From Amycolatopsis palatopharyngis (GTDB taxonomy: Bacteria > Actinomycetota > Actinomycetes > Mycobacteriales > Pseudonocardiaceae): 64,000 bases of DNA. The notes beneath the pieces are model-generated. The model was not told where the DNA came from. It ran no database searches and saw only the letters and a program-made list of their open reading frames with translations. This document shows, in pieces, positions 500 through 35,051 of this stretch. The stretch's first letter is position 1, and every line of letters begins with the position of its first letter. A program made the position numbers and the translations under genes. The DNA lies in assembly GCF_003385185.1 (NCBI RefSeq), contig NZ_PQHZ01000020.1, positions 1 to 64,000 on the forward strand, read 5' to 3'.

Positions 500-1759
500 A
501 TGCTCCGCGACCACATCGATCTCGACGGTAGCTACCTAGTTGTGGAGCGAAACGTACCCGCCCCCGGCGATCTTGCCATCGTCGAACGCAAAGGCTTGGG
601 CCATCCGGACACGTTGGCCGACCACTTGGCGGAGTCTCTTTCGCGCGCCTACGGTCGCTACACACGCAGGGAGTTCGGGGTAGTGCTGCACCACAACTTC
701 GACAAGCTGAGCTTGCTGGGCGGTTCCTGCGAAGTTCGATACGGAGCGGGCCGAATGGTTGACCCAGTTCGCGTCCTGGTCAACGGTCGCGTGGCCCGTT
801 CCTGTGGGGGAGTGTCCATCCCCGTCGATGACCTGATCGCCGGGGAGGTGCGTGGGTTCTTCGCCGACCGTATACCTGAGCTGGACGGGCACGTGTCCAT
901 TGAAATGAACGTGACCAGTAATCCCAGTCCCGGTGCTGTGCTGACCGGGCAGGGTTCCACTGACCGGGGGCGGTGGTTCGCGCCGCGGTCGATTGATGAC
1001 CTGCGTGAGCGTCGGCAGTTGCTGGCCAACGACACGAGTCTCGGTACAGGCTGGGCGCCAGAGAACCGGGTGGAGCGTTTCGTAAGAACGCTTACTGATC
1101 ACTTCTCCAGTCCGGATGGGTTTCGGGCGTCCCACCCCTGGTGCGGCTCTGACGTCAAGGTGATGGCTCACGGCGTGGATCGGGAGCTCGATGTGGTGCT
1201 GGCGGTGCCGCAAAAGTGCGAACAGGTGACGAGTCGTGCCGAGTACCTGGAGAACAAGGACGCCGTACTGGCTGAGTGCAGACGGATAGCGGAGCGGAGC
1301 CTGCCCGAGGTAGAGGCACGTTTCCACCTCAACGCCCGTGATCTTCCTGAGCGTGACGAGCTGTATCTGACGTACACGGGATCCTCGATCGAGTCCGGGG
1401 ATGAAGGCGTGGTAGGCCGGGGTAACCGGGTGAACGGCCTGATCACGCCGCTGCGCCCGATGAACGTGGAGGGTGTCAGCGGGAAGAACCCCGTCTACCA
1501 CGTCGGCAAGCTCTACAACGTGGCCGCGGACCGTATCGCCCAGCGCTTGTTTGAGGCGACCGGGGCACCGGCTGAAGTGCACCTGGTCAGCGCTACTGGG
1601 CAGCGCTTGGATCGGCCGTGGCGGATTGTGGTCCGGCTGGCCGAGGGCGGCGATGAGTTGGCCAACGACAAGCTGCGGGCGCTCCTGTTGGAGACTCTCG
1701 ACACCTTCCCGTTGCTCACCGACGAGATCATCTCGGGCGATGGACCAGCGACGGCATGA
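500..1759 (+). CDS. mat: Archaeal-type S-adenosylmethionine synthetase
   Basis: Predicted to make S-adenosylmethionine from methionine and ATP in the cytoplasm. The 419-residue protein matches the archaeal MAT family (COG1812), not the usual bacterial MetK. It has ERKGLGHPDT at about residues 29-38 and a glycine-rich stretch at about 293-330 (GDEGVVGRGNRVNG, then a conserved SGKNPVYHVGKLYN segment). The frame is open upstream to 383, but ATG 500 places the first motif where archaeal MATs have it, so I chose 500. It is the first gene of an operon; its TGA overlaps the next ATG. Actinomycetes normally carry a separate housekeeping metK, so this copy is probably specialised for the pathway encoded by the operon. 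Confidence 0.88.
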   Translation: MLRDHIDLDGSYLVVERNVPAPGDLAIVERKGLGHPDTLADHLAESLSRAYGRYTRREFGVVLHHNFDKLSLLGGSCEVRYGAGRMVDPVRVLVNGRVARSCGGVSIPVDDLIAGEVRGFFADRIPELDGHVSIEMNVTSNPSPGAVLTGQGSTDRGRWFAPRSIDDLRERRQLLANDTSLGTGWAPENRVERFVRTLTDHFSSPDGFRASHPWCGSDVKVMAHGVDRELDVVLAVPQKCEQVTSRAEYLENKDAVLAECRRIAERSLPEVEARFHLNARDLPERDELYLTYTGSSIESGDEGVVGRGNRVNGLITPLRPMNVEGVSGKNPVYHVGKLYNVAADRIAQRLFEATGAPAEVHLVSATGQRLDRPWRIVVRLAEGGDELANDKLRALLLETLDTFPLLTDEIISGDGPATA

Positions 1760-2475
1760 CAAGGCCCGCCGCCACGACATACCTGCTCCGCCACGCACCT
1801 AGTGCATACAGCGTCGACTACCGGGTCAACGGGGATCCAGCGGTCGATGTCCCCCTGACCAGCGACGGGGTTGCCGAATGTCGGGTGGCACGGTGGGCGG
1901 TTCCTAGTGAGAATCTCGGGACATGCGTGACCAGCGCGTTTGGTCGGTGCATACGTACGGCTGAGTGGGTTGTTGCCGGACGAGCTGAGGTGTATGTCGA
2001 TCCACGTCTGAACGAGCTGGACTACGGCGCGTTTGAGGGCGCTGCTTTCCTGGACTACGCGCGTTGGCTCATCGAGCATGGCCCGCACGTTCGGCCGCCA
2101 GGCGCTGGGGAGTCGCAAACCGAGGGGATCGAGCGGATGCTTGCTGGCCTGCGGGGGGTGCTGGAACGGCCGGGGCCGCGTCTTGTCGTTGCTCACGGAC
2201 TGCTCGTCTCGGTGATCCAATGGGCGCAGGCGTTCCCGCAGCAGTCGTTGACTGAGGTGTTTCTGCCTCCGGCGCCGTGCCTGAAGCCGGTGCTTATCGA
2301 CGATGAGGAGCTACAGGTCCTGACAGGTTGGCTGTTATGCGATCTCGCTTCGGCGCAGGACCGCGGCTGGCATGTGGACCTCGGGGTATTCCCGCGAGAA
2401 GCGCAGGCTGCACTTGCTACCGTCGGTACACACGCTTCAGCAAATAGAGACGAGGACGAGGCAACTCATGCATGA
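1756..2475 (+). CDS. Histidine phosphatase (phosphoglycerate mutase-like) family protein
   Basis: The 239-residue protein has the branch-1 histidine phosphatase signature: LLRHAPS with Arg12-His13 near the N-terminus, LDYGAFEG in the middle and VVAHGLLVSV at about residue 145, which supplies the second catalytic His. It should remove or transfer a phosphate through a phospho-His intermediate; the substrate cannot be read from sequence. Its ATG overlaps the stop of the SAM synthetase (ATGA) and its 3' end overlaps serS by 8 nt, so all three are translationally coupled. The kinase at the end of the operon suggests a phosphorylated intermediate is made and then dephosphorylated. Confidence 0.8.
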   Translation: MTRPAATTYLLRHAPSAYSVDYRVNGDPAVDVPLTSDGVAECRVARWAVPSENLGTCVTSAFGRCIRTAEWVVAGRAEVYVDPRLNELDYGAFEGAAFLDYARWLIEHGPHVRPPGAGESQTEGIERMLAGLRGVLERPGPRLVVAHGLLVSVIQWAQAFPQQSLTEVFLPPAPCLKPVLIDDEELQVLTGWLLCDLASAQDRGWHVDLGVFPREAQAALATVGTHASANRDEDEATHA

Positions 2476-3760
2476 TGCCCGCACCCTGCTCGACCTGGGC
2501 GAGGACGCTGTTCGCTCCTTGGCTAGGCGGGGCTACACACTCGACCTGACCACGATCGAGGATCTTTTCACGCGCCGGAACTCCTCGATCAAGAGCGCGG
2601 ATGAGTTGCGGGCCGAGTCCAAGAAGGTCGCGGCCGAGGTGGGCAAGACCGCCAAGGCCGGCGACGACACGACCGAGCTGAAGGAGCGTGCCCGAGCACT
2701 CAAGGATCGGGTACGCGAGCTCGAGGAAGAGCAGGAGAAGGTCGAAGGCGAGCTGCGCGAGATCCTGCTGACGATCCCGAACTTCCCAGCCGACGATGTG
2801 CCCGACGGTGCCTCCGAAGACTTCAACGTCGAGGTGCGCAAACACGGCACCCCGCCGAGCTTCAGCTTCGACCCCAAAGACCACGTGGACTTGGGTGAAG
2901 CGATGGGCATTTTCGACTTCGGTCGGGCCGCGAAACTCTCGGGTTCACGGTTCAGCGTCACGCGTGGGCCCGGCGCGGTGCTGGAACGGGCGCTGGCGAC
3001 GTTCTTTCTGAATCTGCATACGGGTCGTCACGACTATCAGGAGATCGGTGTTCCCAACCTGGTGAACCGGGCCACCATGACTGGAACCGGTCAGTTGCCC
3101 AAGTTCGAGGACGACCTGTTCCGTACCGGGGTGGCCGATCGGGAGCTGTTTTTGATCCCGACCGCCGAAGTGCCGTTGACGAACCTGCACGCTGACGAGA
3201 TTCTGCCGTCGGAAGCACTGCCCTACGCCTATACCTCGTGGACTCCGTGCTTCCGTTCTGAGGCCGGGTCGTATGGCCGGGACACGCGCGGCATCCTGCG
3301 GTTGCACCAGTTCTCGAAGGTCGAGTTGGTGCGAATTGTGCGTCCTGAGGAGTCCCGTGCCGAGCTGGAGACGATGCTCGGACACGCCGAAGTGTGCCTG
3401 AAGGAACTCGGGCTGGCCTATCGAGTTGTGGCGTTGGCCGCTGGAGATCTGGGCTTTGGTGCCACGTTCACTTACGACATCGAGGTGTGGTTGCCTAGCC
3501 AGGGCACCTATCGCGAGATCAGCTCGTGCTCGGACTGCGGCACCTTCCAAGCCCGGCGAGCGGCGATTCGCACCAAGACGAAGGACGGTAAGCGTGGGCT
3601 GGCTGCGACGTTGAACGGGTCGGGCCTGCCGATCGGGCGGACGCTGGCCGCGCTGCTGGAGCAGAACCAGCAGCACGACGGCTCGGTGGTCGTTCCCGAG
3701 GTGCTGGTGCCGTTCACCGGCTTCCGTCGCCTCGCAGCTGACGGCACTCCCGAGTCGTAG
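2468..3760 (+). CDS. serS: Seryl-tRNA synthetase
   Basis: Class II synthetase that charges tRNA-Ser with serine. The 430-residue protein has the N-terminal two-helix coiled-coil arm (about residues 30-110), motif 2 (FRSEAGSYGRDTRG, from about 262) and motif 3 (NGSGLPIGRTLAALLE, from about 382). All core elements look intact. The start ATG 2468 is inside the end of the phosphatase gene and preceded by a GA-rich ribosome site at about 2453-2461. It sits within a specialised operon, so it is probably a second copy. It may supply seryl-tRNA to a biosynthetic step, as in valanimycin synthesis, or be a resistant copy, as in albomycin producers. Those precedents are known; their relevance here is inference. 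Confidence 0.92.
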   Translation: MHDARTLLDLGEDAVRSLARRGYTLDLTTIEDLFTRRNSSIKSADELRAESKKVAAEVGKTAKAGDDTTELKERARALKDRVRELEEEQEKVEGELREILLTIPNFPADDVPDGASEDFNVEVRKHGTPPSFSFDPKDHVDLGEAMGIFDFGRAAKLSGSRFSVTRGPGAVLERALATFFLNLHTGRHDYQEIGVPNLVNRATMTGTGQLPKFEDDLFRTGVADRELFLIPTAEVPLTNLHADEILPSEALPYAYTSWTPCFRSEAGSYGRDTRGILRLHQFSKVELVRIVRPEESRAELETMLGHAEVCLKELGLAYRVVALAAGDLGFGATFTYDIEVWLPSQGTYREISSCSDCGTFQARRAAIRTKTKDGKRGLAATLNGSGLPIGRTLAALLEQNQQHDGSVVVPEVLVPFTGFRRLAADGTPES

Positions 3761-3764
3761 TCCG

Positions 3765-4787
3765 ATGCTCGTCGGCGTCTGCGACTTCCCCGGCGACTAC
3801 GCATTTCCGCCAGCTGGCTATGGCGGGATCGAGCGATGGCTGTGGGCGGTAGCCGTAGGCGCACGCGCCGCTGGAGCTGACGTGCACCTGCTCGGTCCGC
3901 ACTGGCGGCCGGAACTGGCGGACGAGTGGCACGTGTGGCCGACCCGGCTGGAGGACGTGACACCGGGGTGCCAGGAGGCCCGCAAGCTGCGCGACGCCAG
4001 CTATGACCTCCTCGTGGTCGGCCACGAGTACCCGTCGCTACCTGCCTGGCGGTCGGTATGGGAGACGCTGGACGCCGATGTCGCCACATTCCAGCATTGG
4101 CCGTACTTCGAACATCGCACCGATGCCTTCGACGGGCTGCGATCGCGGCTGTACTGCTACTCGGAGCAGATGCGGCAGCGATACGCGGAGCATCTGCCCA
4201 TTGCAGAGTTGGCTGTGCATCTCGGTCTGAATGAAGCCGAGTTACCGGCCCGCGGGGAGGGCGAGCTGCTGTGGATGGGCCGTATTGACCGGCAGAAGGC
4301 TCCACACCTGGCGATCCGTGCTGCCGGGCTCCTCGGGCAGCGCATCACCGTCGCCGGACCGGTGTTCGATGCCGACTACGTGGACGCCTACCGCGAGGTG
4401 TTCGGAGCGGAGCACGTGCGCATGGTCGGCGAGGTCGGAGGCGAGGCCAAGATGCATCTGCTGGCCGATGCGAGTGCGTTCGTCTATACCTGCGCCCCCA
4501 ACTACATCGAGGCGGGAGCCGCATCGTTCGGTGAAGCACTACGCGCGGGAACACCAGTCGCCGCACTGGCCTGGCAGACAGGCACCTGCGCTCATGCCGC
4601 CCTTTGCGAGCACACTGGCAGCATCGCCCAGGTTCACCATGACGCCGACGACGCCATCGCTGCAAAAGCGCTCAGTGACGCGATTGAACAAGTGCTACCG
4701 TCCCGCGCTCGGGAGGTGCAGGAAATCGGACTGAGCCGTTTTGACCCGGCCGCGCATTTCCACGCACTCGCTACACGCCCATGCTGA
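3765..4787 (+). CDS. GT4-family glycosyltransferase
   Basis: The 340-residue protein has the two-domain GT-B layout. The N-terminus contains GYGGIERW, typical of the acceptor side. The C-terminal domain begins near GELLWMGRIDRQKAPHLA and carries the E-x7-E type segment EAGAASFGEALRAGTP, which binds the nucleotide-sugar donor. It should transfer a sugar to an unknown small acceptor. It lies 4 nt after serS and overlaps the next gene by 7 nt, so it belongs to the operon. The first residues resemble those of soluble GT4 enzymes; there is no signal peptide or membrane segment. Confidence 0.82.
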   Translation: MLVGVCDFPGDYAFPPAGYGGIERWLWAVAVGARAAGADVHLLGPHWRPELADEWHVWPTRLEDVTPGCQEARKLRDASYDLLVVGHEYPSLPAWRSVWETLDADVATFQHWPYFEHRTDAFDGLRSRLYCYSEQMRQRYAEHLPIAELAVHLGLNEAELPARGEGELLWMGRIDRQKAPHLAIRAAGLLGQRITVAGPVFDADYVDAYREVFGAEHVRMVGEVGGEAKMHLLADASAFVYTCAPNYIEAGAASFGEALRAGTPVAALAWQTGTCAHAALCEHTGSIAQVHHDADDAIAAKALSDAIEQVLPSRAREVQEIGLSRFDPAAHFHALATRPC

Positions 4788-5779
4788 CCGGCCGTTCCGC
4801 CGAACTGCTGGCAGCACTCCAGCAAACCTTCCCGACCTGGAAGTGCACCCTGGACGGCGATCAGGTGACCCTCGTCTACGGACGCGTCACGAACGCGTTC
4901 CGGCCACCACGGCGCTCGCCGTCGTTGCCCGAGATGCTTACGACCCTCACGGAGGCCTGTACTGCCCACGGCATCCAACGACACCACCCGCTGCCGCTTC
5001 GCGGACTCGAGGACGCCGAGCTGACCTTCTCCGCTGTCCAGGCTCTCGACCCGTACCTCAAACACACCCAGCATCACGTCCATGCGCACGGCTTCCTCCC
5101 ACAACCGGTCGTGCGCTTCACCGGCGAGCGTGACGAGCACGGCGCATTGTTACCGGGTTTCGCGACCTCCTTCGTCAACGTCTCGATCGTCGAGCCGATC
5201 GCAACGGTCCGCGAGCACGCCACCCTCATCGACGCCTGGATCGGCGTTCTCTCACGTCTCGGCTTCCACGCCCAACACCTCACCATCAGCGGCAAGCTCC
5301 CCGTCTGGCATCGCGCAGCGGTCGCTGGGATCACCCTGCGGATCCACCATGAGAGCCGGGAACTTGGGGACGCCGTGCTGCTGTGGAACCGCGAGAACCC
5401 GTCGAAACTGGCTACTGATATCGGCTCCGGCCTGGAACGGATGGCCTGGCTACTCACCCAACGCGACTGGGACCAGGTCGTATACGGCACCCTGGCTGAG
5501 CACGTGAGCCTTCGCGTCCTCGACGCTGTCCGAACCGCGACCCTCATTGTCGGCTCCGGCATCGACCTGGCCCCACGCGGCCCCGGCAACGCCATTCGCC
5601 GTTTGCTCCGCCGCGAAGTCACGTGCCAGGGCAGCCTTGGATTGAGTCGAATCGTCCGATGGGCACATGCCTACTGGACCGGGATTGCCCCACTGCCAAT
5701 GCCGTGGGCCGAGGTCTGCCGCATCCTCGACTCGGAATTACTCGACTACTCGGCAACCGGTGCCGCATGGCCCCACTAA
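4781..5779 (+). CDS. Alanyl-tRNA synthetase-like protein (catalytic-domain homologue)
   Basis: This 332-residue protein resembles the catalytic part of alanyl-tRNA synthetase. It has GSGLERMAWLLTQ (motif 3, about residues 214-226) and GPGNAIRRLLRREV (about 267-280), the counterpart of the GYVLRRLLRR element of AlaRS. The first half is more divergent: I cannot find the usual motif 2 or the N-terminal R-HN region with confidence. It lacks the editing and C-Ala domains, since full AlaRS is about 870-900 residues. So it is unlikely to be the housekeeping AlaRS. It may activate an amino or carboxylic acid for a small-molecule step. It overlaps its neighbours on both sides and must be co-translated with the glycosyltransferase and the kinase. 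Confidence 0.68.
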   Translation: MLTGRSAELLAALQQTFPTWKCTLDGDQVTLVYGRVTNAFRPPRRSPSLPEMLTTLTEACTAHGIQRHHPLPLRGLEDAELTFSAVQALDPYLKHTQHHVHAHGFLPQPVVRFTGERDEHGALLPGFATSFVNVSIVEPIATVREHATLIDAWIGVLSRLGFHAQHLTISGKLPVWHRAAVAGITLRIHHESRELGDAVLLWNRENPSKLATDIGSGLERMAWLLTQRDWDQVVYGTLAEHVSLRVLDAVRTATLIVGSGIDLAPRGPGNAIRRLLRREVTCQGSLGLSRIVRWAHAYWTGIAPLPMPWAEVCRILDSELLDYSATGAAWPH

Positions 5780-6678
5780 GCCCGGGCCTTCCGACGGGAG
5801 CGCGCCAGCGGCTTGTCGAGCACTACGGCTCGTCAATCCGTACCTGGTTGGGCGATGTCGAGGACAACGTCGCGGCCACTGCTTCCAGCTGCGACATCAC
5901 CGTCGACGGATTCCACGATGCCGGGTGGGCCTCCGTGGTCGGCGTCGGACGCTTCACGACTGGACAGCCCGTCATTCTGAAGGCGATTCCCGACTCGGAC
6001 CGCTACCAGCAAGAACGAGCAGCTCTCACGCACTGGGGAGGGCACAGCGCAAGTCGCCTGATTAGCTCCGACGATACGACTCAGATCCTCCTAATTGAAC
6101 TCGTCGGAAGTGCGGCGGGTGGATCGCCACGGCCGGACGATCACATCGAACGAATCGCAGATGCGCTGCCACAACTACACGAGGTCGAAGTTAAATCCTG
6201 CACTCCGGTCCCAACCCTTCGCGGCTACTACGTTCGAACAGTTCTGCCAAGGATTGAGCGACGCGCGTCCCGATTCGGCGAGGCTGTCGGCGAACGAAAC
6301 GTTCGGTTGGCCCTCGACCTGGGCGCCGATCTATGTGCGACATCGAATCAGCGCGCGATGCTGCATGCCGACCTCTACGCTGAGAACATCCTGTTCGACT
6401 CAAACCTGACTCCGGTCTTCATCGACCCGCACCCCAAGGTGGGTTCCCCGGCTTTCGACTGGGCGTTCTGGTGCGTCTACTACCGTCAAGACGGCGAATT
6501 TGCCACCAGGATACGACTCTGCCGATCACGAGTGCCTGGGCTGCACGACGAGGTACTGGCGTGGTCACTGACACTGGCCGTGGACGGCGCCTTGTACTAC
6601 AAAGCGAATGACGAAACAAATGTCGCAGCAATGCAATTGGTCATCTCCTCACCCGAGTTGGCCAGCTTGCCCACTTAG
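5767..6678 (+). CDS. Aminoglycoside phosphotransferase (APH/choline kinase-like) family kinase
   Basis: The 303-residue protein has the APH catalytic loop HADLYAEN (about residues 199-206) and the metal-binding segment FIDPHPKVGSPAFDW (about 218-232). It should phosphorylate a hydroxyl on a small molecule using ATP or GTP. ATG 5767 lies within the end of the preceding gene (13-nt overlap); the frame is open further upstream but that part only shadows the previous gene. It is the last gene of the operon that begins at 500. It could be a biosynthetic kinase or a self-resistance enzyme; the sequence does not decide. Confidence 0.75.
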   Translation: MAPLSPGLPTGARQRLVEHYGSSIRTWLGDVEDNVAATASSCDITVDGFHDAGWASVVGVGRFTTGQPVILKAIPDSDRYQQERAALTHWGGHSASRLISSDDTTQILLIELVGSAAGGSPRPDDHIERIADALPQLHEVEVKSCTPVPTLRGYYVRTVLPRIERRASRFGEAVGERNVRLALDLGADLCATSNQRAMLHADLYAENILFDSNLTPVFIDPHPKVGSPAFDWAFWCVYYRQDGEFATRIRLCRSRVPGLHDEVLAWSLTLAVDGALYYKANDETNVAAMQLVISSPELASLPT

Positions 6679-6772: not shown

Positions 6773-7204
6773 CTAGCTGGCCCAGGCGCGCCAGAAGGGA
6801 GTTTGTTCGTCAGCAGGGGCCAGGAGAGCGTCTTTGAGTGTGCGTGGTCGCACGTCGGACTCAGCGAGGTCGTCTACGGGACACCAGTGAAATTCCAGGT
6901 GGGCTTCCTGGCTGGTGGGTTCGCTGTCGGCGAGGTCGACCTCGAACACGAAGTTGAGTTCGTGGTGGGTGGTGTCGTCTTCGATGTATCCGTGTTCGAC
7001 GACACCGAGGAACCTCGCAATCGTGGCCTCGGTCCCGAGTTCTTCCGTGATCTCGCGGATGAGGGCGGGTTCGACCCGCTCGCCGGGTTCGACATGACCG
7101 CCGGGCAGGAACGACCAGGACTTCGTGCGTTGCGTGGCGAGCAGCAGGTGTCCGTCCCGTCGGATGACGGCCCTCGCGATGATTTCCGTGGCAGCCGCGC
7201 CCAT
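6773..7204 (-). CDS. NUDIX hydrolase
   Basis: The 143-residue protein has a complete NUDIX box at residues 35-57 (GG-x5-E-x5-L-x-RE-x-TEELG), so it should hydrolyse a nucleoside-diphosphate-linked substrate. I start it at ATG 7204, which has AAAGG seven bases upstream; the longer open frame has no family match. It is convergent with the six-gene operon. NUDIX proteins occur both next to small-molecule clusters and on actinomycete integrative elements (Pif of pSAM2), and either explanation fits here. Confidence 0.88.
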   Translation of the reverse strand: MGAAATEIIARAVIRRDGHLLLATQRTKSWSFLPGGHVEPGERVEPALIREITEELGTEATIARFLGVVEHGYIEDDTTHHELNFVFEVDLADSEPTSQEAHLEFHWCPVDDLAESDVRPRTLKDALLAPADEQTPFWRAWAS

Positions 7205-7246
7205 GTGTGGCCTTTCGTGTCGTTGGTGCCATCTAGTGTCCAGCTT

Positions 7247-7880
7247 GTGACTGTTGCGGATCTTACGGTCGATCAAGTGGTGGCTGCGGTGGAGCGGCTG
7301 TTGCCGGAGGCAGTTCCCGTCCGTCCTGTGGGCGTATTGCGTAAGGGGCGTAGCCATACGTCATGAGTATTGGACTCCGGTCTCGGGCGGCTGGTCGGCA
7401 AGGTAGGGCTGCATGGCGATAAAGCTGTCGCGCTGAGACGGCTCGATGAGCATCGTCGGGTGTGGGAGCACGGTGTGCCGGTGCCGAGGCTGCTGGGTTT
7501 CACGGGCGCCAGCAGTGCGGTGGGTGATCGGTTGTTGATTGTCGCTGAGTATCTGCCCGGTCGCGATGCCGAGGATTCGCGTTCGTTGCCTTCAGCAGTT
7601 ATGGGCGACGTGATGTACTCCGCAGGGGCCGCTCTGGCGGGCTTGCACGGCGTTCCAGTGGCGTGCTTCGGCGATTCGGACAGTGGGCTGGGCCGGGGTT
7701 TCGCCACCTGGGACGCTGCGATCTCGTCGCGTGTCGAGTTGCTCGCTCGCGCCTACAGAGCGCAGAGCGGGTCTTTGGACGGCGACGTGGAGCGATTGGT
7801 CGCCGCCGGCCTGGTGTTGCTGGGTCGGCTCGCCGACGAGGTATCTGCCGTTGTGCGTCCGGCGCACGGGGAAGATGCTG
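7247..7880 (+). pseudogene. Frameshifted and truncated aminoglycoside-phosphotransferase-like gene
   Basis: Two frames together look like the N-terminal lobe of an APH kinase. The first (from GTG 7247) gives VADLTVDQVVAAVERLLP and ends at TGA about 7366. The second (from about 7370) continues with GKVGLHGDKAVALRRLDEH and GVPVPRLLGF, then LLIVAEYLPGRD and AGAALAGLHGVPV. The sequence loses resemblance at about 7880, before the HGDLHxxN catalytic loop. It is therefore broken by a frameshift and missing its catalytic half. It is a different lineage from the intact kinase at 5767. Confidence 0.6.
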
Positions 7881-8034
7881 GTTTACACCCAGCACAACGT
7901 CAACGCTGTCGCCCTCATCCCACGCATGTGCGGTGTACTTCTTGCCTCCGGCGTGACCGACGAAGATGGCCCCGCGCACGCAGACGCCCTGCGCGAGCCG
8001 TCAGATTCCAGGCGAGTCGAACGTACGTGCGAAC

Positions 8035-8409
8035 ATGGTAGTTTGCCGACGTGACTCCGCTGCCTTCACCTCCGCGCCGGACGGCGCGCTGCGCTACCGA
8101 GTCGGTCAGGCTGGCACGACGATCGCCGTCCTTCCTGCCACCTGCAAAGGCGGAGGGCACATCGTCGTTTCAGGAGTCAACAGAGCTATCTCTGCCGGGG
8201 GCGAGGTCCGCGTGGACTGCCCCGCCTGCGCCGCGACGCCCGGAGTCGACGCGAGCTGGCTGTTGACGGATGTCATCACCCTCCCAGCGCGTGAACGGGC
8301 TGTTGATCACGGCACACCTGCCTACCTCGGACCGATCGCCGCCCGCACGCGGTGGATGAGGTCGTCGTACGGTTGGTCGTCCAGCTCGGCACGACCGAGG
8401 CTGGCGTGA
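8035..8409 (+). CDS. Small hypothetical protein, possible zinc-binding
   Basis: An open frame of up to 124 residues from ATG 8035. The middle part looks like a real protein: VGQAGTTIAVLPATCKGGGH, then a glycine-rich stretch, then VDCPACA. One Cys and the CPAC pair could bind zinc. The last 30 or so residues are low-complexity Arg/Ser and look out of frame, so the gene may be damaged near 8330. No ribosome site is evident. I do not recognise a family. Confidence 0.35.
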   Translation: MVVCRRDSAAFTSAPDGALRYRVGQAGTTIAVLPATCKGGGHIVVSGVNRAISAGGEVRVDCPACAATPGVDASWLLTDVITLPARERAVDHGTPAYLGPIAARTRWMRSSYGWSSSSARPRLA

Positions 8410-8638: not shown

Positions 8639-10126
8639 TCAGTCTGACATTCCGCCGGATGACGGCTCGAGCGCCGCGGTGACGGCTTCGAGTTCGACCA
8701 GTGCGGCGGTGAGGTCCTCGATGATCTCGCGGGCGATGAGGTGTGGGGCTGGGAGGTTGTCGGTGTCTTCGAGCGACTCGTCACCAAGCCACGTGATGTC
8801 CAGGTTGACCTTGTCGCGTGCGAGAAGGTCGTCGTAGGTGAACGACTTGAATCGTTCGGACTCGATCCGCTCTGAGCGCGCCTTTCCCGGCGCGTAACAC
8901 TCGACGAAATCGTCCAAGTGTTGACGGCGCAGCGGATTCTGCTTAGGCGTAAAATGTTGATTGGTACGCAGATCGTAGATCCAGAGTCTGTCGGTCCAGG
9001 GGCGTTCGGCCGCAGGCTTCTTGTCGAAAAACAGCACGTTCGCCTTGACGCCCTGTGCGTAGAAGATCCCCTTTGGCAGGCGCAACATGGTGTGCAGATC
9101 GAAGTCGCGGAGCAACTTGCGCCGCAGCGTCTCACCTGCACCGCCCTCGAAGAGCACATTGTCCGGCAGTACGACGGCCGCGCGGCCGTTGATGTCCAGG
9201 ATCGTGGCGATGTGCTGAAGGAAGTTGAGCTGCTTGTTTGCCGTGGTAACGACGAAGTCCTGGCGTTCGATCTCGCGGTCTTCGCGAACCTCCAGCCCAT
9301 CGGCGCCCACCATCGTCAACGAGGATTTACGACCGAACGGAGGGTTGGACAGAACAACAGACCAACGGCGGCCGGGGTCGGCGATCAGCGCGTCGCGCAC
9401 CTCGATCAATGAGTCCCCAGCCGGATCTCCGATGCCGTGCAGAATCAAGTTCATCGCGGCAAGGCGGGCCGTCCCGTCGACAAGCTCGTGGCCGTAGGCG
9501 AAGTCGTGCCGGAGATGGTCCCTCTCAGTGCGGGTCATCGACTCCGATCCACGGGAGGCATACTCGTGCGCTGCGAGCAGGAAGCCCGCCGTCCCTGCGG
9601 CGGGATCGACCACGGTGTCCTTCACCGTAGGCTGGACGCAGTCGACCATAGCCTGGATCACCGCGCGGGGCGTGAAGTATTGTCCGGCACCGGACTTGAT
9701 GTCTTCAGCTCCCTTGGACAGGAGCGCTTCGTAGGCGTCGCCCTTGATGTCGGTGCCGGTGGCCGACCAATTCTCCTTGTCGATGAGGTCGACGATGAGC
9801 CGCTTCAGTTTCGCGGGATCTTGGATCCGGTTCTGCGCCTTCCGGAAGATCGTTCCCAACACGCCTGGCCGCTTCCCGAGCTCTTCCAGAATGTGCCGGT
9901 ACTGCGTCTCCAGCGCGTCACCCCTGGCATCCAGCAGGGTCTGCCAGGAGTATTCCGACGGAACGATCTGCTGCGGATTGAGTTCGCGCGTTGCACGTTC
10001 ATGCGCCATCTTGAGAAAGAGCAGATAGGTGAGCTGCTCGACGTATTCGATCGTGCCGACGCCATCGTCACGCAACACGTTGCAGTAGGACCACAGCTTG
10101 TCGACCAACGACCGCGCGTTAAACAT
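8639..10126 (-). CDS. hsdM: Type I restriction-modification N6-adenine methyltransferase subunit
   Basis: HsdM methylates adenine in the recognition site and forms the modification core with HsdS. The 495-residue protein has the N-terminal helical HsdM_N domain (about 5-130), SAM-binding motif I as VVDPAAGTAGFLLAA (about 172-186) and catalytic motif IV NPPF (261-264). Length and motif order are typical of an intact subunit. It is the last gene of the hsdR-hsdS-hsdM operon, 21 nt after hsdS. Confidence 0.95.
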   Translation of the reverse strand: MFNARSLVDKLWSYCNVLRDDGVGTIEYVEQLTYLLFLKMAHERATRELNPQQIVPSEYSWQTLLDARGDALETQYRHILEELGKRPGVLGTIFRKAQNRIQDPAKLKRLIVDLIDKENWSATGTDIKGDAYEALLSKGAEDIKSGAGQYFTPRAVIQAMVDCVQPTVKDTVVDPAAGTAGFLLAAHEYASRGSESMTRTERDHLRHDFAYGHELVDGTARLAAMNLILHGIGDPAGDSLIEVRDALIADPGRRWSVVLSNPPFGRKSSLTMVGADGLEVREDREIERQDFVVTTANKQLNFLQHIATILDINGRAAVVLPDNVLFEGGAGETLRRKLLRDFDLHTMLRLPKGIFYAQGVKANVLFFDKKPAAERPWTDRLWIYDLRTNQHFTPKQNPLRRQHLDDFVECYAPGKARSERIESERFKSFTYDDLLARDKVNLDITWLGDESLEDTDNLPAPHLIAREIIEDLTAALVELEAVTAALEPSSGGMSD

Positions 10127-10147
10127 TGGCCAACTCTCCCAATAGGT

Positions 10148-11422
10148 TCATGTCAAATTGGTATCCACTTGCCCTCGAAGGAGCTCACCCGAGAAGGCAG
10201 TCATAAATAGTGCTCGCCGTAGGCGATTCACTCGATGTTGCGCCGTTTCGAGTGCCGACTCCTGCATCCTGACGCTGTCCAGACTTTCGCGAACTTGTGC
10301 GGCGATGCGCAACTGCTCACTAAGCGGGGGAAGCACTATCTCGACGTTCTTCAAGTCCGTTCCAGATATACCCATCTGCCCGGATGTTGTCTTTATCTTC
10401 GATTGAATCTGCTTCCTACCGTCTCCGAAACTGCACGCCAATGCGACGAAACCGGGATCTGCAAGATCAGGGTCTGGGCGCACGCGAATCAATTTGTCGG
10501 GATACGTGAGTGCGGGGATCCCGCCGGGAACCACAGCACATGCGCCGACATACTGCGAGTTCCCATTATAACGGGTGAATAGCAAGTCCCCGGGTTGCAG
10601 CAGCGCGTCGCTGCGCAGGAGATCCTCTGCCTCACGCTCCGAATAGCGCAGATCGGTTAGGTCGAGCGCCAATGGACGAACAGCACCGATTCGCAGGATT
10701 GGCGTGCCGTTAGGCTCCGCCTTCGCTCGCGATACAAAGATGCCATTACGCACACCAATGGATAGTCCGCCGATCAGGTGTCGTTTTCCGTTGACCTTGG
10801 CCAGCTCAGCGGAGACGATTGCAGCCCTAAGTCGCCTTGCTCGGCGGCCAGCCTGGTCAAAGTACGTAGCTGCCGCGTCGAGGCGAGAGAGATGGTCCTC
10901 AAGTAAATCCTGCAGTCGCTCCTGCTCATCCAAAGGAGGAATCGGAACAGGTAGCTGCTTGATCATTGAAAGACTTATCGATGCCAGATTTGTAGTCTGC
11001 TTGCCGTACCTCTCGAACCACTCCCTTGCGCACTCGTTGGCGAACCAAGCAAGGAGCTTTGGGCGCAGCGCTTCGTTGCGAATTCGCGCCCGAAACACGT
11101 GGTTCTGATGGATACAGCGAGGGATCTGTCCCTCCCATACCCATCCCCGCCCCAATTTGTCGCGATCGCCGCCCTCATTCAGCAATACATCGCCGGACTG
11201 AAGCTGAAGCCTATTAGCCGTAGATTCGGGCACACGGATTTCGGTCACCGATGAAAGATCGATGCGACCCCGCTGAACATTGGCGACACGCAAGTACGGC
11301 ACAAGGGGAATCGTTGGGTCCGATTGCTTCTTCGAATCTTTCGTTACACCGCCAACAACATCGGCGATTTCGCCTAGCAGTGCCCACGTCCAACCGTCGG
11401 GGATAGGGAGCAGAGGTGTCAT
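10148..11422 (-). CDS. hsdS: Type I restriction-modification specificity subunit
   Basis: HsdS reads the bipartite DNA target and docks HsdM and HsdR. The 424-residue protein has two target-recognition regions. The first starts at about residue 8 with GWTWALLGEIADVVGG and ends in the conserved helix LPVPIPPLDEQERL. The second ends in the parallel segment VEIVLPPLSEQLRIA. Each is followed by a long helix (LLEDHLSRLDAAATY and the later matching helix). Both halves are present, so it appears complete. Its ATG overlaps the stop of hsdR (ATGA). The base and codon use inside the recognition regions look more AT-rich than the flanking genes, as is common for recombining hsdS. Confidence 0.93.
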   Translation of the reverse strand: MTPLLPIPDGWTWALLGEIADVVGGVTKDSKKQSDPTIPLVPYLRVANVQRGRIDLSSVTEIRVPESTANRLQLQSGDVLLNEGGDRDKLGRGWVWEGQIPRCIHQNHVFRARIRNEALRPKLLAWFANECAREWFERYGKQTTNLASISLSMIKQLPVPIPPLDEQERLQDLLEDHLSRLDAAATYFDQAGRRARRLRAAIVSAELAKVNGKRHLIGGLSIGVRNGIFVSRAKAEPNGTPILRIGAVRPLALDLTDLRYSEREAEDLLRSDALLQPGDLLFTRYNGNSQYVGACAVVPGGIPALTYPDKLIRVRPDPDLADPGFVALACSFGDGRKQIQSKIKTTSGQMGISGTDLKNVEIVLPPLSEQLRIAAQVRESLDSVRMQESALETAQHRVNRLRRALFMTAFSGELLRGQVDTNLT

Positions 11423-14172
11423 GCAGGCAGTTCCCTGTTCAGTTCGTCCAGCAGTTCGGCCGCACGGGACACGCCAAGGTCACGGAGGGCGCCGTCGGCA
11501 CCGCCGCGGTCGGTGAAGGGGGCTCGGTCAAGGTCTTCGGGGGTGATACCGGCCGAGGACGCGACTACCTCGACCATGCGATCGAGCCACCACCTCTCGG
11601 TCTCACTGAACCTGGCTCCAGCATGTTCTTGCTGGTTTAGCCACGCAGCGTAGCGCTCACGAATTCGGTCAGCGTAAGGGACCAGCTCTTCGTCTTCGCC
11701 GATCGTGAAGCGTATGAGAGACACCAAGTCGGTGAGGGTGTGGCGGGTACTGCGGCGGACGCGACCAGCCGCGATGGCCTCGTAGGCGGCCCAGAGCACC
11801 TCGGGGGTCCAGTTGTAGGGAGGCCGGCTGATCCGGTCCGCCAGTTCCTGGATGTCGTCGAAGGAGATGTGACGTTCTCGGGCCTCGGTCATCAGTTGAA
11901 TGGCAGTGATCTCGTCGCGGTGCTCTGCGAGGTACTGCGACCAGCTTTCGACGAGAGACCGGGCGCGGTCGGTGTCGACCACGCCGTGTGCGTCCAAGAG
12001 CACGTCCACACTGACCTCGTCGATGATCTGGTCGTGAGCGCGTCGGAGTTCGAGGATCCGGTTGCGCAGCTCGGGGTTGGCCGCCAAGGGCTCGATCGCG
12101 CTATCGAGGAGCTGCTGAACGACAGCGGCCGGGTCAGCGGCCCCCAGGACCGCGTGGGCCTGCTTGTCCGGGTCGACCGCATCCACGAGACCGCGAACGA
12201 TGGCCTGGACTGCGTTGCCCGCAACCAGGTCCAGCTCGGCCCGCTCGGCGGGCGTGAGTTGCAACTCTAAGGCCGTCAAGCGTGAAGCGAGAGTCGCGGT
12301 CTCATCCTCAGTGAGTGTGAGCGTGGCCACCTTGTCCAGCAACTTCTTCAGGCTGATGCCCTTCTGGCGGTTCAGGGGCGGGTCGACGAAGTCGTGCTCG
12401 GTGACCCCGACGGCGTCGACAATGACGAATCGGGTCTTCTCGGTGGCGTCCGGAGTGACAGCGCGGAAGTCGGCAGAGGAGATCGTGCGTGCTCCGCGGC
12501 CCTTCATCTGCTCGAAGTACTGTGCCGAACGCACGTCACGCATGAAGAACACGCACTCCAGCGCCTTGACGTCGGTGCCTGTGGCGATCATGTCCACGGT
12601 GACCGCGATCCGCAGGACCGTCGAGGTGCGGAACGCTTGGAGCCGCCCCTTGGGGTCCTTCGCGTTGTAGGTGATCTTGGCGGCGAAGTCGTTGCCCTTG
12701 CCAAATACCTCCCGCACCGTCGTGACGACCTCCTCGGCGTGGTTGTCGTCCTTGCAGAAGATCAACGTCTTGGGCACGGCCGAGCGGCCGGGGAAGATCT
12801 CGGGCAGCTTGTCGCGGAAAGTCTCCAGCACCAGCCGGATCTGACTGGTGGAGGTCACCGCGCGGTCCAGCTGCCTACTGGTGTAGACGAGATCCTCGTT
12901 GAGCGCCTCTAGGCGTTGCACACGGGTGCGGCGATCCACCATCGGCACGACGGTGCCCGCCTCGATCTCGGAGCCGTCGGCGGTGATCTGTGTCTTGATC
13001 CGGTACAGGTCGAAGTCGACGTTGACCAGGTCAGCCACCGACTCGGGGTAGGTGTACTCGGATACCAGGTTCTGGCGGAAGAATCCGAAGGTCTGCTTGC
13101 CGGGCGTGGCGGTCAGGCCGACGACGTGGACGTCGAAGTACTCCAGCACCCCGCGCCAGACTCCGTAAATGGAGCGGTGCGCCTCGTCGACGATGACCAG
13201 GTCGAAGCTCTCCGGCGGCAGCAGTCGGTTGTACGCGACGGTGACCGGCGCCTCGGGGACGTAGCCATCCAGGCCGGGATCGTCGCCCTCGGCCACGTCC
13301 TCGTTCTTGAGCACCTTGAACACCCGCTGGATCGTGGAGATCGCCACCTGGGTGGAGCCAAGCATCCCCGCGCTGGTGAGCTTGTCGACGTTGTAGATCT
13401 CGGTGAAGCGGCGTCCGTCGTCGGGTGTGCGGTAGTTCTGGAATTCCGCCAGCGTCTGATCGCCGAGGTTGTTGCGATCCACCAAGAACAGTACCCGGTT
13501 AAAGCCACCGAACTTCAGCAGCCGGTAGGACTCGGCGACCGCCGTAAAGGTCTTGCCGGCGCCGGTGGCCATCTGCACCAGCGAACGGTCGAACCGCTGC
13601 TCAGCCAGCGACTTCTCGATCCCACGGATCGCGGCGACCTGAGCCTTGCGCATCGGTCGCTCGTCCAGCACCGGCAGTGTCCGCACCTTGGCTCGCCAGG
13701 TCGGCCGGGCCGGGTCGCGCTCAGCGTCCCGCAGGACGCGGGCGAGTGTCTCCGGCTTGGGAACGTTGAACAGCCGCCGGGACCGAGGCTGGGGGTCGTA
13801 GCCGTTGGTGAAGTGGGTCTCCGTGCCGCTGGCCTCGAAGACGAACGGCAAGCGCCCGTCCACGGTCAACGCCTTCAGCCGCACCTCGGGCGGCAACCCC
13901 TCGGCGTACATGGCGGACTGCCACTCAACGCCGGACAGGGTGGTCCCTACCGACTTGGCCTCGATGACCCCGACTACCCGCTTGTCGACGTAAAGTAGGT
14001 AGTCCACACGGCCGTGCCCCTTGGCCATGATCATCTCGCGGACCGCGATACCCAGGCCGGCGAACAAGTTGATGTGCTTCCGATCCTGGACCAACCATCC
14101 GGCATCAGCCAACTGTTGATCGATGAGCACCCGCGCCCGCTGCTCAGCGGCAAGCCTGGGATCGTCCGTCAC
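11419..14172 (-). CDS. hsdR: Type I restriction-modification endonuclease/translocase subunit
   Basis: HsdR is the motor and nuclease that cuts unmodified DNA. The 917-residue protein has the PD-(D/E)XK nuclease site (Asp57, Glu71-x-Lys73 within VGVIEAKSVG), Walker A MATGAGKT (201-208) and a DEAH box (329-332), followed by the second helicase lobe and a C-terminal EcoEI-type domain. I start it at GTG 14172, which has GGAGG eight bases upstream; the longer frame adds unrelated residues. It is first in the operon, with gene order R-S-M. Confidence 0.95.
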   Translation of the reverse strand: MTDDPRLAAEQRARVLIDQQLADAGWLVQDRKHINLFAGLGIAVREMIMAKGHGRVDYLLYVDKRVVGVIEAKSVGTTLSGVEWQSAMYAEGLPPEVRLKALTVDGRLPFVFEASGTETHFTNGYDPQPRSRRLFNVPKPETLARVLRDAERDPARPTWRAKVRTLPVLDERPMRKAQVAAIRGIEKSLAEQRFDRSLVQMATGAGKTFTAVAESYRLLKFGGFNRVLFLVDRNNLGDQTLAEFQNYRTPDDGRRFTEIYNVDKLTSAGMLGSTQVAISTIQRVFKVLKNEDVAEGDDPGLDGYVPEAPVTVAYNRLLPPESFDLVIVDEAHRSIYGVWRGVLEYFDVHVVGLTATPGKQTFGFFRQNLVSEYTYPESVADLVNVDFDLYRIKTQITADGSEIEAGTVVPMVDRRTRVQRLEALNEDLVYTSRQLDRAVTSTSQIRLVLETFRDKLPEIFPGRSAVPKTLIFCKDDNHAEEVVTTVREVFGKGNDFAAKITYNAKDPKGRLQAFRTSTVLRIAVTVDMIATGTDVKALECVFFMRDVRSAQYFEQMKGRGARTISSADFRAVTPDATEKTRFVIVDAVGVTEHDFVDPPLNRQKGISLKKLLDKVATLTLTEDETATLASRLTALELQLTPAERAELDLVAGNAVQAIVRGLVDAVDPDKQAHAVLGAADPAAVVQQLLDSAIEPLAANPELRNRILELRRAHDQIIDEVSVDVLLDAHGVVDTDRARSLVESWSQYLAEHRDEITAIQLMTEARERHISFDDIQELADRISRPPYNWTPEVLWAAYEAIAAGRVRRSTRHTLTDLVSLIRFTIGEDEELVPYADRIRERYAAWLNQQEHAGARFSETERWWLDRMVEVVASSAGITPEDLDRAPFTDRGGADGALRDLGVSRAAELLDELNRELPA

Positions 14173-14310
14173 CCCACTGCCTCCCCCACGCTGTCGTGTC
14201 GACCACAGAAGTATCTTCCACCACGGGCAGACCAGCGTAGGTAGCACTGACGCTGGAGCTGCTGACATGAAGATCGCCTGCCGACCTCTGCAAGTTACAC
14301 ACCGACAAGT

Positions 14311-15426
14311 TCAAAACTCCACACGAGGCCGTTCGCTGATATCCCTGTTGAGCAGAGTACGAACGTCCGCTTTGGGAAGCCCTGAGCGGTGGATAAACTC
14401 AGGGAATGAGACGCCGGTCGTTTCCGTGAGTTCCAGCGCGCGTCGTAGGAGTACCGGAGCCTCCGGGTTTCCCAGCGGGCCAGGCTCTACCTTGCGCCAT
14501 CCTCGCACGGACAAGGCTTTCCATGCCTGCGCGTAAGTGTGCTCACTCATGACCCCGAGCGTCTTTGCCCTGACCAGCAGGGCCGCAAGTGAGACGTGCC
14601 ACTTTGCCTTCAGGCGGAGAAATGTGGGCCAGTCGAGTCGGGCCGGAAGTTCGGGTTTGATGTCGTCGGCTGGCATGAGGAATGCGGCGGCGAACTCGTT
14701 GGCTTGATTCTCGGTAGCCTTGTCGCCGATTTGGCCATTGATGCCATGTAGGACGAGATGTCCTAGTTCGTGGGCTGCGTCGAAGCGTGAGCGGTCGCGC
14801 AATCCCTTGTCGGCTCCGAGAGCGACCACCGGCCTGTCAGGGAAGTCGACGCAGAATGCATCGACTTTCTCGATGCTGACACGGAAGCGAACAACGACTA
14901 TCCCGTTCATTTCGAGCAGTCTCACGACGTCCTGAATTGGACCACGAGGCACGTTCCAGTGGCTTCGCGTCTGTGCCGCGGCGTGTTCGATATCGGTGGC
15001 TTGTAGAGGCTGTCCTTCGTCGGCAGGAACGCGCGGCAGGTTGAGATCCGGCAGCGCGACGTATTTTTCGAGCTCGAGTGCGAGTTCCCGTGTGAGGTGC
15101 ACGTAGGCCAGTGCTTGTTGGCGATCTCGAGGAGAGGTGGACCTGAGGCTTCGGAAGAATCCGTTGAGCTGCTCCTGAGCAGGGGGACGGGCAGGGGCGG
15201 CGAAGAAAGACGGTGGCACGCGTAGCGCCACCGAGAGCCGACGCAGGGTCGATGCGGCGGGCCGGGTGTGCCCGTTCTCGAACTGGCTGACCGAGGCCGC
15301 CGTGACGGAGCCGACTTCTCGAGCCAGTTGCACCTGGGTAAGCCCTCGAAGCTCGCGCGCCATCCGCAGTCTGGCCCGGTCGAACAGGGCCGCGATGTCG
15401 CCGGGGTCCAATTGCGGGTCGTTCAC
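14311..15426 (-). CDS. XRE-family regulator fused to an ImmA/IrrE metallopeptidase domain
   Basis: The 371-residue protein has an N-terminal XRE helix-turn-helix (about residues 15-75, including LTQVQLAREVGSVTAASVSQ) and a C-terminal ImmA/IrrE peptidase domain with zinc motif HELGH at 219-223. Proteins of this kind repress nearby genes and cleave themselves or a partner on a stress signal, as known for phage and ICE repressors. It lies between the restriction operon (138 nt from hsdR) and the divergent CBASS operon, so it may regulate either one. Confidence 0.88.
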   Translation of the reverse strand: MNDPQLDPGDIAALFDRARLRMARELRGLTQVQLAREVGSVTAASVSQFENGHTRPAASTLRRLSVALRVPPSFFAAPARPPAQEQLNGFFRSLRSTSPRDRQQALAYVHLTRELALELEKYVALPDLNLPRVPADEGQPLQATDIEHAAAQTRSHWNVPRGPIQDVVRLLEMNGIVVVRFRVSIEKVDAFCVDFPDRPVVALGADKGLRDRSRFDAAHELGHLVLHGINGQIGDKATENQANEFAAAFLMPADDIKPELPARLDWPTFLRLKAKWHVSLAALLVRAKTLGVMSEHTYAQAWKALSVRGWRKVEPGPLGNPEAPVLLRRALELTETTGVSFPEFIHRSGLPKADVRTLLNRDISERPRVEF

Positions 15427-15702
15427 GTCTTGTCTCCGCGCCAGTCCACGTCCGCTGGTGAGCGGACGATTCTCGATCTTGATCGGTCCGCTCGCATCTT
15501 AGGCATACCTTGGTTACCACTGAGTCAAGTTGCGTCCACTTCCGCCGACACGCCCGGGTGAGATGTGGCGACTCGGCGGCAATCTTCGCCGTGTACTCTA
15601 CCTGAAACCAAGAAGATGATGCTCAAATCTGAGGCAATCGCACTCGGGGGATGGAGTCGTAGAAGTGAGGGTTCAGGAGTGCGCGGGGGACTTCAGGGGG
15701 TT

Positions 15703-16698
15703 GTGGACGTGACGCCGACGATCACGCATGCCGACGTGGCGGCCTTCGCGGAACGGGCGGTGAACCTGCCGCGCCAGACCGCGATCGACAGGCGAAAGCA
15801 GGTGAACACACTGCGCGACCGGCTGACGTCGCACATCGCGGACAACCCCGGGTTTTCGCTGGTGAAGATGCTGCACGCGGGCTCGGTGGCCAAGGGGACG
15901 GCGCTACGTACATTCAACGACTTCGACGTGGCGATCTACGTCAAGCGCGACGACGCCCCCGTCGAGGAAGCCGAACTGGTGGAGTGGATCAGCGCACGGC
16001 TCCGTGCGGCGTACAAGGGACTGCTCGACCCGTCCCAGATCACGCCGGGCACGCACTGCGTGAACGTCCACTTCAAGTCCACCGGCACCGATGTCGATGT
16101 CGTGCCGGTGCTCTACGAAGGCGACGCGGATGATCGCGGTTACCTGATCGCCAAGGACGCCGTTGACCGGACCGACTGGTTGCTCACCAGCGTCCGGCTG
16201 CACCTCGACTTCGTTCAGGTCCGGAAGAATGACTGTCCTGACGACTGGGCACAGGTGGTGCGCCTGGTGAAGTGGTGGGTCCGCGAGCAGGTCATGAGCA
16301 GCCCTCCGAGAGACAAGTTCCGGTTCAAGTCGTTCATGATCGAACTGCTCTGCGCGCACCTTCTGGATACCGCGCGCGTCGACTTCACCGACTACGCCAC
16401 CGCGTTGGAGGGCTTCTTCGACTACATCGTACGCACGGAGCTCGGCGAACGGATCGCGTTCGACACGTATTACCCGGCGTCGGACCTGCCGAACACACGG
16501 GTCGGGGAGATCGAGATCTTCGACCCGGTCAACCCGGCGAACAACACCGCCCGCCTGTATGAGCACCGGGACCGTGTTCGGATCGTGGACGCGGCCGAGG
16601 CCGCCCTGGACGCCATCACCGAGGCGAGCTTCGCCACGACGAAGGACCAGGCCGTGAAGTGTTGGCAGGTCGTGCTCGGCAGCAGGTTCCGGGGGTAG
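15703..16698 (+). CDS. CBASS CD-NTase (cGAS/DncV-like nucleotidyltransferase)
   Basis: Synthesises a cyclic oligonucleotide alarm signal on phage infection. The 331-residue protein has the nucleotidyltransferase site: Gly60-Ser61 in HAGSVAKGTALR, the metal-binding pair NDFD (Asp73, Asp75), and a third acidic position in TDVDVV (about 130-132). GTG 15703 follows a GGGGG-rich site at 15691-15700 and gives the usual N-terminus for this family. The frame extends upstream to 15565 but the extra residues look random. The protein product clade (C or D) cannot be fixed by eye. It starts a four-gene overlapping operon. Confidence 0.88.
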   Translation: MDVTPTITHADVAAFAERAVNLPRQTAIDRRKQVNTLRDRLTSHIADNPGFSLVKMLHAGSVAKGTALRTFNDFDVAIYVKRDDAPVEEAELVEWISARLRAAYKGLLDPSQITPGTHCVNVHFKSTGTDVDVVPVLYEGDADDRGYLIAKDAVDRTDWLLTSVRLHLDFVQVRKNDCPDDWAQVVRLVKWWVREQVMSSPPRDKFRFKSFMIELLCAHLLDTARVDFTDYATALEGFFDYIVRTELGERIAFDTYYPASDLPNTRVGEIEIFDPVNPANNTARLYEHRDRVRIVDAAEAALDAITEASFATTKDQAVKCWQVVLGSRFRG

Positions 16699-34032: not shown

Positions 34033-34097
34033 TATTTCCACTCCTTGAGATCAGGCCTCCGCAAGGTGTCCAGGATGGTGCGTATCGGAAGTGTCAT

Positions 34098-34916: not shown

Positions 34917-35051
34917 GATGGGACCTCCTCTCCGAGACGTACGTCGCTCAGGAAGGCCAAGTTGAGGTCGTCCTCGTGATCGCGTGCCGTACTGCTCTTG
35001 AACCACTGCTTCTGGCAGGGGCTGTTGCCGCCGTGACGAGCGCCACGAGCG

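Follow-up and report, generated by a model that had tools for sequence, protein, structure and literature searches.

What might two homologues of aminoacyl-tRNA synthetases (aaRS) do in an operon that also encodes an S-adenosylmethionine (SAM) synthetase, a glycosyltransferase, a kinase and a phosphatase? The question is raised by six + strand genes at positions 500-6678 of a 64-kb stretch of Amycolatopsis palatopharyngis DNA (hereafter the window, meaning the whole stretch that was analysed). The window starts where its 110-kb contig starts, in a genome of 7.0 Mb, so that what lies further upstream is beyond the contig end. One of the two homologues is a second, divergent and full-length seryl-tRNA synthetase (SerRS); the other, which we call AlaL, is by its predicted fold the catalytic core of an alanyl-tRNA synthetase (AlaRS). 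We read the operon, of which our literature searches found no description, as a case of aaRS-dependent amino acid conjugation in specialised metabolism, and we propose, with confidence evenly balanced between yes and no, that it is a compact pathway for a seryl glycoconjugate not yet described.

The operon and its conservation

The genes overlap their neighbours by 4-13 nt (overlaps of 4, 8, 7 and 13 nt) or, at the single gap, sit 4 nt apart, in the order metK-phosphatase-serS-GT4-alaL-kinase. The first, metK (500..1759, with an alternative GTG start possible at 383), encodes an archaeal-type SAM synthetase (methionine adenosyltransferase, MAT; PF01941, 2.8e-90), whose solved relatives are archaeal MATs (4hpv, 9.3e-94). 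It is followed by a histidine phosphatase (1756..2475; PF00300, His_Phos_1, 8.4e-21; best solved relative CobC 6nru, 5.6e-12), serS (2468..3760, for a SerRS of bacterial type; TIGR00414, 458.6 bits for a cut-off of 301.65), a GT4-type glycosyltransferase (3765..4787; PF00534, Glycos_transf_1, 1.2e-8; best solved relative 2iuy, 1.8e-11), alaL (4781..5779) and an APH-like small-molecule kinase (5767..6678, a longer open reading frame starting at 5623 also existing; PF04655, APH_6_hur, 4.4e-17; solved relative fructosamine-3-kinase 3f7w, 1.7e-5). Residues R12, H13, R64, E87 and H147 of the phosphatase are invariant in all 19 aligned sequences, as are E249 and E257 (EX7E) of the glycosyltransferase and H200, D202, N207 and D220 of the kinase in 22 of 22 each. 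An earlier note on this DNA had described a single-strand operon of this layout, with an intact SerRS, a shortened AlaRS-like protein and no tRNA gene. The reading frame coordinates, the family matches and, for AlaL, the fold comparison given below agree with it, and neither tRNA genes nor Rfam matches were found in the window.

Peptide patterns run against a single genome for each GTDB species, an approach by which distant copies can be missed, returned 79 loci with alaL, every one under an actinomycete name (hosts include Streptomyces, Kitasatospora, Nocardiopsis, Thermobifida, Actinomadura, Kribbella, Lentzea and Nocardia). The order metK-kinase-phosphatase-serS-GT4-alaL is identical in 60 of the 79, a recurrence that argues for an association beyond chance, and serS-GT4-alaL are contiguous in 72. 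The archaeal-type metK was found in 71 loci, and metK, phosphatase, serS, GT4 and alaL are all present in 65. The kinase comes last in the window operon and in two other loci (L020 and L021). These counts refer to loci L018-L096 only, some of which are cut at contig ends (e.g. L018, L019, L048) or decayed (L027, L084, L088).

The earlier note had tied a dedicated pathway to gene order conserved in other genomes, to co-occurrence of AlaL with serS and archaeal-type metK, and to separate housekeeping serS and metK genes. The first two are seen in the counts above. As for the third, the genome carries a housekeeping serS on contig C59 (42.5% identity to the operon SerRS over 395 aligned residues) and two bacterial-type metK genes on C126 and C60, apart from the operon; the housekeeping alaS is on C60. 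Contamination may be the reason for the two bacterial-type metK genes, since the genome record is flagged as 6.49% contaminated. A further serS on C115 (L156:9836-11026), near the contig end, is 96% identical to the operon serS and broken near its N-terminus; other operon genes are not present within the 11 kb read around it.

Protein alignments drew on 85 loci (the 79, five more and the window), with stops, split matches and odd lengths excluded. This kept 68 metK, 70 kinase, 62 phosphatase (64 with a wider length limit for the divergence correlation), 76 serS, 75 GT4 and 72 alaL sequences. The metK of L014 and L028 was excluded because the chosen start was out of frame, and some loci are duplicates between two collections (L014/L028, L015/L026, L016/L047). 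The AlaL alignment holds 54 sequences picked for spread and those of the other operon proteins 19-22 each. The divergence of the six proteins is correlated across loci (r 0.87-0.95, host kinship uncorrected). Judged from sequence, six enzymes are conserved as a unit together with their catalytic residues.

AlaL is scattered. It occurs in 6 of 394 genomes of the class including the window's own, one of the remaining five holding only a 95-residue remnant, in 28 of 392 Streptomyces genomes (a count that includes the 95-residue remnant and one distant relative) and in 0 of 35 genomes of the same genus. The closest relatives of the window copy are found in Gandjariella, in a Pseudonocardiaceae metagenome-assembled genome and in Saccharomonospora (71-75%). 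Four weak matches in the same taxonomic order, which lie in open frames of 478-989 aa, were set aside as apparent fragments of ordinary AlaRS. AlaL is absent from the plasmid and phage records searched, and 20 stretches of viral contigs matched a pattern, of which 0 were relatives. Gandjariella thermophila has two AlaL copies (L018, L019), each on a contig that opens inside GT4, as if two operon copies had broken the assembly.

AlaL resembles an AlaRS catalytic core

AlaL falls under every family cut-off (for PF01411, E 0.0042 and 16.1 bits against 30.3), so that its identity as an AlaRS rests on the predicted fold. The AlphaFold model (pLDDT 93.2, pTM 0.90) matches AlaRS 2ztg with a Z of 27.1 over 320 residues, the best non-AlaRS match reaching 15.0, and the 332 aa of the protein align with residues 1-428 of 2ztg and 1-376 of 3hxu. 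On this model AlaL is a class II AlaRS catalytic core that has neither the editing nor the C-terminal domain, nor most of the tRNA-recognition part.

When the profiles of AlaL and E. coli AlaRS were aligned (hhalign, E 3.4e-5, probability 72%, 142 columns), W176, N203, D213, G215 and R220 of AlaL fell on residues that we take to be the amino-acid pocket and motif 3 of AlaRS. All of these are invariant in 54 of 54 AlaL sequences except N203, which is kept in 48 (5 His, 1 Pro). The motif-3 region spans alaL residues 213-220 (5417..5440, + strand), where E219 is invariant as well. In the motif-2 region (residues 104-135; 5090..5185, + strand), Q108-P109-V110-V111-R112, F131 and N133 are also unchanged in the 54, and R112 and F131 were equated by eye with the motif-2 Arg and Phe of AlaRS. 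AlaRS-type pockets also take serine.

The SerRS of the operon

All 25 sampled operon SerRS form one clade (support 100/100), apart from the housekeeping SerRS of actinomycetes. Among 31 others, the operon SerRS is nearest to that of E. coli (mean 51%, against 39% for the own housekeeping enzyme); the trees hold 25 and 11 operon sequences and set them against a single phylum sample and E. coli, which may not include the closest donor group. In the enlarged tree, the operon clade also takes in two copies that stand alone (L172, L173) and the SerRS of two different gene neighbourhoods (L174, L175), and is thus not exclusive to the operon. The serS of L175 lies beside genes for an LPG_synthase_C protein and an aminotransferase of class III; the locus also gives an AurF match that is weak and below cut-off, and by sequence this set recalls azoxy clusters.

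Two SerRS N-domain matches were counted in 14 of 388 genomes of the class, the window's own among them, and reading by eye places all six AlaL genomes in this group. Of the two-match genomes without AlaL, four (G049, G086, G213, G280) have just one SerRS at E 1e-40 and four (G189, G230, G291, G340) carry a SerRS 59-69% identical to that of the operon. In G281, which has an AlaL scrap only, the second SerRS is of the ordinary type (43%).

A divergent version and sibling clusters

A very divergent version (L176, in Streptomyces genome G676) encodes a MAT (45%), a phosphatase (50%), a GT4 enzyme, a SerRS (39%) and an AlaL (27%), together with a 389-aa protein without family match, a UDP-GlcNAc 2-epimerase and a GMC oxidoreductase. 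Its SerRS is outside the operon clade, and the recurrence of the same five functions with another SerRS lineage argues that the SerRS is a working part. In the AlaL of L176, the residues of motifs 2 and 3 are retained, as are the Asp and Gly of the pocket. This protein (9484-10671) also has an N-terminal extension with a CxxC...C pattern that by eye is like a zinc ribbon. The epimerase hints at an N-acetylhexosamine (HexNAc) sugar.

Counting the window's own, 13 of 388 genomes of the class have the archaeal-type MAT, and five of these carry the operon described here. In L114-L116, the MAT is accompanied by a sulfatase-like protein and by a divergent glutamyl-tRNA synthetase (GluRS)-like protein (429-474 aa; PF00749, 19.8-28.8 bits for a cut-off of 23.4) next to a full-length GluRS, each genome having a second full GluRS elsewhere. 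In L117-L119 the MAT lies amid different genes, with a TIM-barrel protein and a carbamoyltransferase in L118; the remaining MAT loci are on a short contig (L120) or have no operon genes (L113). A different arrangement is seen at L173:4449-10885, which holds a radical SAM gene, a Tyr/TrpRS-like gene (PF00579, 1.9e-12), a protein without assigned function and a second tyrosyl-tRNA synthetase (TyrRS); an operon-type serS and a 39-residue AlaL scrap come directly after these radical SAM and TyrRS genes.

By their gene content, L114-L116 and L173 represent two further actinomycete clusters in which a full-length duplicate aaRS is found together with a divergent protein that resembles an aaRS. We tentatively suggest that such clusters form an overlooked class of small actinomycete pathways, in which a duplicate full-length aaRS would work with a partner that is divergent or shortened, in many cases alongside an archaeal-type MAT, to make aminoacylated SAM-derived glycoconjugates or nucleosides, L114-L116 and L173 being siblings in design. 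Within this putative class, the operon of SerRS and AlaRS-like protein is the most widespread seen here.

Proposed pathway

The proposed seryl glycoconjugate pathway would start with phosphorylation of a small acceptor by the APH-like kinase. The GT4 enzyme would add a sugar to the phosphorylated acceptor, HexNAc being suggested only by the epimerase of L176, and the histidine phosphatase would strip the phosphate after glycosylation. The dedicated SerRS would produce seryl-adenylate or seryl-tRNA, from which AlaL, with its AlaRS-type pocket for small amino acids, would pass serine on to the intermediate, at an amine or a hydroxyl. SAM would be supplied by the archaeal-type MAT and is probably used as a building block, the least certain step, given that no small-molecule methyltransferase was found among the recurring neighbour families scanned (neighbours were scanned in part). 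With no transporter encoded in the operon, the product may function intracellularly or be exported by a general pump.

The earlier note had favoured a glycosylated, amino-acid-containing small molecule in which the synthetases activate serine and another acid. We keep the first part as the best reading. The second part has less in its favour, as the sole full synthetase is the SerRS and AlaRS-type pockets accept serine, which makes serine alone the simpler choice.

Several observations weigh against a seryl glycoconjugate. AlaL retains the residues for making its own adenylate, and so the SerRS may not be the serine donor. Operon-type serS genes occur without alaL in L172, L174 and L175, to which the broken copy on C115 can be added. 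The kinase was found in only 69 of the 79 loci and the phosphatase in 67. In L176, the branch of length 2.08 leaves the position of the SerRS unsure, and the AlaL does not have the pocket residues at the W176 and N203 positions. The correlated divergence of the six proteins may reflect shared host ancestry, as it has no control. More generally, the proposal draws on gene content, predicted folds and precedent, and we consider that it could equally well hold or fail.

Alternative explanations

The alternative that survives best, which we nevertheless regard as unlikely, is that AlaL alone acts as an ATP-dependent ligase of Ala or Ser, in the manner of MshC, and that the SerRS is a self-resistance copy, protecting against a product that mimics seryl-adenylate and inhibits the housekeeping SerRS. 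The motif-2 Arg, motif-3 Arg and pocket Asp of AlaL, present in 54 of 54 sequences, are reported as lost in AcmF of the ascamycin pathway (PMC12945691). The operon SerRS also has fixed changes near motif 3, where the H386 of E. coli is replaced by Ala in 25 of 25 and A394 by Pro in 23 of 25 (limits for counting residue changes, 88% and 80%), and SerRS2/AbmK gives resistance to albomycin (PMC9032320). Going by the sequence, however, these changes may confer resistance or have no bearing on it, and one of the other 31 SerRS, by eye the housekeeping enzyme of this genome, likewise has Ala in place of H386. Moreover, the operon has no transporter, the pairing with a SerRS recurs with a different SerRS lineage in L176, and the precedents use the SerRS in synthesis as well. 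The earlier note had offered a SerRS inhibitor with a resistant SerRS copy as its other reading; this role and that in synthesis could hold side by side, since AbmK is reported to do both (PMC9032320).

AlaL might instead act on a macromolecule, attaching an amino acid to a tRNA base, to a protein or to a carrier protein like GluQRS, EpmA or the amino acid:carrier protein ligases, the other genes building a modification. Truncated aaRS paralogues in such roles have been described (PMC9437257). Yet the glycosyltransferase, the small-molecule-type kinase and the phosphatase point to a small molecule, and the six packed genes leave no room for a carrier-protein gene between them (within the operon only), which makes this explanation improbable.

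Another explanation that we find hard to credit is a chemical or metabolic anti-phage system that travels within defence islands. It is suggested by the surroundings, as the operon borders a large anti-phage defence island (window 8639-35006). The island comprises a type I restriction-modification (RM) system (8639-14268), an RmrA-like regulator (14311-15426), a CBASS-like cyclase (15565-16698), TRIP13 (17048-18118), Wadjet JetABCD (23778-30698), Thoeris ThsB/ThsA (31744-33050) and, on the - strand, a second ThsB-like gene (33526-34041) and a TIR-domain gene (34098-35006). Some further operon copies likewise have genes of RM type close by; among the examined loci, for example, a Mrr_cat protein cluster is near 7 and a relaxase protein cluster near 24. 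The core proteins themselves, however, gave no informative PADLOC match (none for five of the six, and for the SerRS an uninformative 16.2 bits to the coiled-coil part of JetC). Joint carriage on mobile elements accounts for the neighbourhood, and the defence-island and relaxase setting fits mobile cargo.

A second APH-like kinase is directly upstream of metK in 33 of 77 loci, and NUDIX genes are near 16 operon loci. The recurring neighbours scanned are XRE-type regulators, NUDIX, creatininase, HAD, flavoprotein, aminotransferase IV, P-loop protein, Mrr-type nuclease, relaxase and SPDY. In the window, the operon is followed by a NUDIX gene on the - strand and then by an open reading frame that matched no Pfam family but looks by eye like an APH kinase (6773-8041). 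At the other end, the contig opens within a frame that by eye resembles the end of a transposase (1-90).

Finally, an island of spare housekeeping enzymes (SerRS, MAT) with no common pathway is very improbable, for although an operon-type serS stands alone in L172 and on C115, 60 of the 79 loci conserve the gene order and L176 repeats five of the functions.

Significance and comparison with known systems

Six simple enzymes without a nonribosomal peptide synthetase or polyketide synthase are easily missed by searches for biosynthetic clusters. The operon offers an easily expressed test of the recruitment of synthetases into small-molecule synthesis, the pair of AlaL and SerRS is a handle for finding further such pathways, and the possible yield is a new SerRS inhibitor or an intracellular cofactor.

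Mycothiol synthesis runs through glycosylation (by the GT4 enzyme MshA) and removal of a phosphate, with an aaRS paralogue to ligate the amino acid. The last of these enzymes, MshC, is a paralogue of cysteinyl-tRNA synthetase (CysRS; PMC9437257). The operon shares this logic. Membership of the mycothiol pathway was nevertheless dropped, because AlaL has the class II AlaRS fold instead of the CysRS type of MshC. At E 0.001, MshA is not listed among the solved relatives of the operon GT4.

In azoxy clusters, VlmL supplies seryl-tRNA (PMC9379638). The valanimycin pair of VlmL, a SerRS, and VlmA has in common with the operon a cluster-borne SerRS for seryl transfer, VlmL being likened by description, and the SerRS of L175, an azoxy-like locus, belongs to the operon clade. 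Unlike the valanimycin cluster, the six operon genes include no LPG_synthase_C (VlmA-like) transferase.

The ascamycin enzymes AcmD, an AlaRS, and AcmF offer the closest likeness in design to AlaL, for a full synthetase is again found with a shortened AlaRS-like protein that transfers a small amino acid to a small molecule, and AcmF accepted Ser-tRNA (PMC12945691). AlaL, too, is an AlaRS aminoacylation domain without the editing and C-terminal domains, but AcmF retains a tRNA-recognition domain, AlaL being shorter, and the partner of AcmF is a full-length AlaRS where that of AlaL is a SerRS. The same paper describes AcmF as having Gln and Glu in place of the Asn and Asp that serve activation, whereas in AlaL this Asp is present in all 54 sequences and the Asn in 48 of them, with the residue equivalence between the two assigned by us. 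AlaL is for this reason not classed as a member of the AcmF group.

In albomycin synthesis, AbmF joins seryl-adenylate, apparently from AbmK, to an amine (PMC9032320). The albomycin cluster, like the operon, combines an additional, divergent SerRS with an enzyme resembling an aaRS, AbmF and AbmK being likened by description; the difference is that the six operon genes encode no pyridoxal phosphate-dependent transaldolase, and neither an epimerase nor a radical SAM enzyme as in the nucleoside path. The earlier note knew of no described pathway with this gene set, and our literature searches agree, as an operon with these six genes was not found described. The close precedents do pair a SerRS or an AlaRS with an aaRS-like enzyme, and it is from two of them, AbmK/AbmF and AcmD/AcmF, that the proposed seryl glycoconjugate pathway would take its logic.

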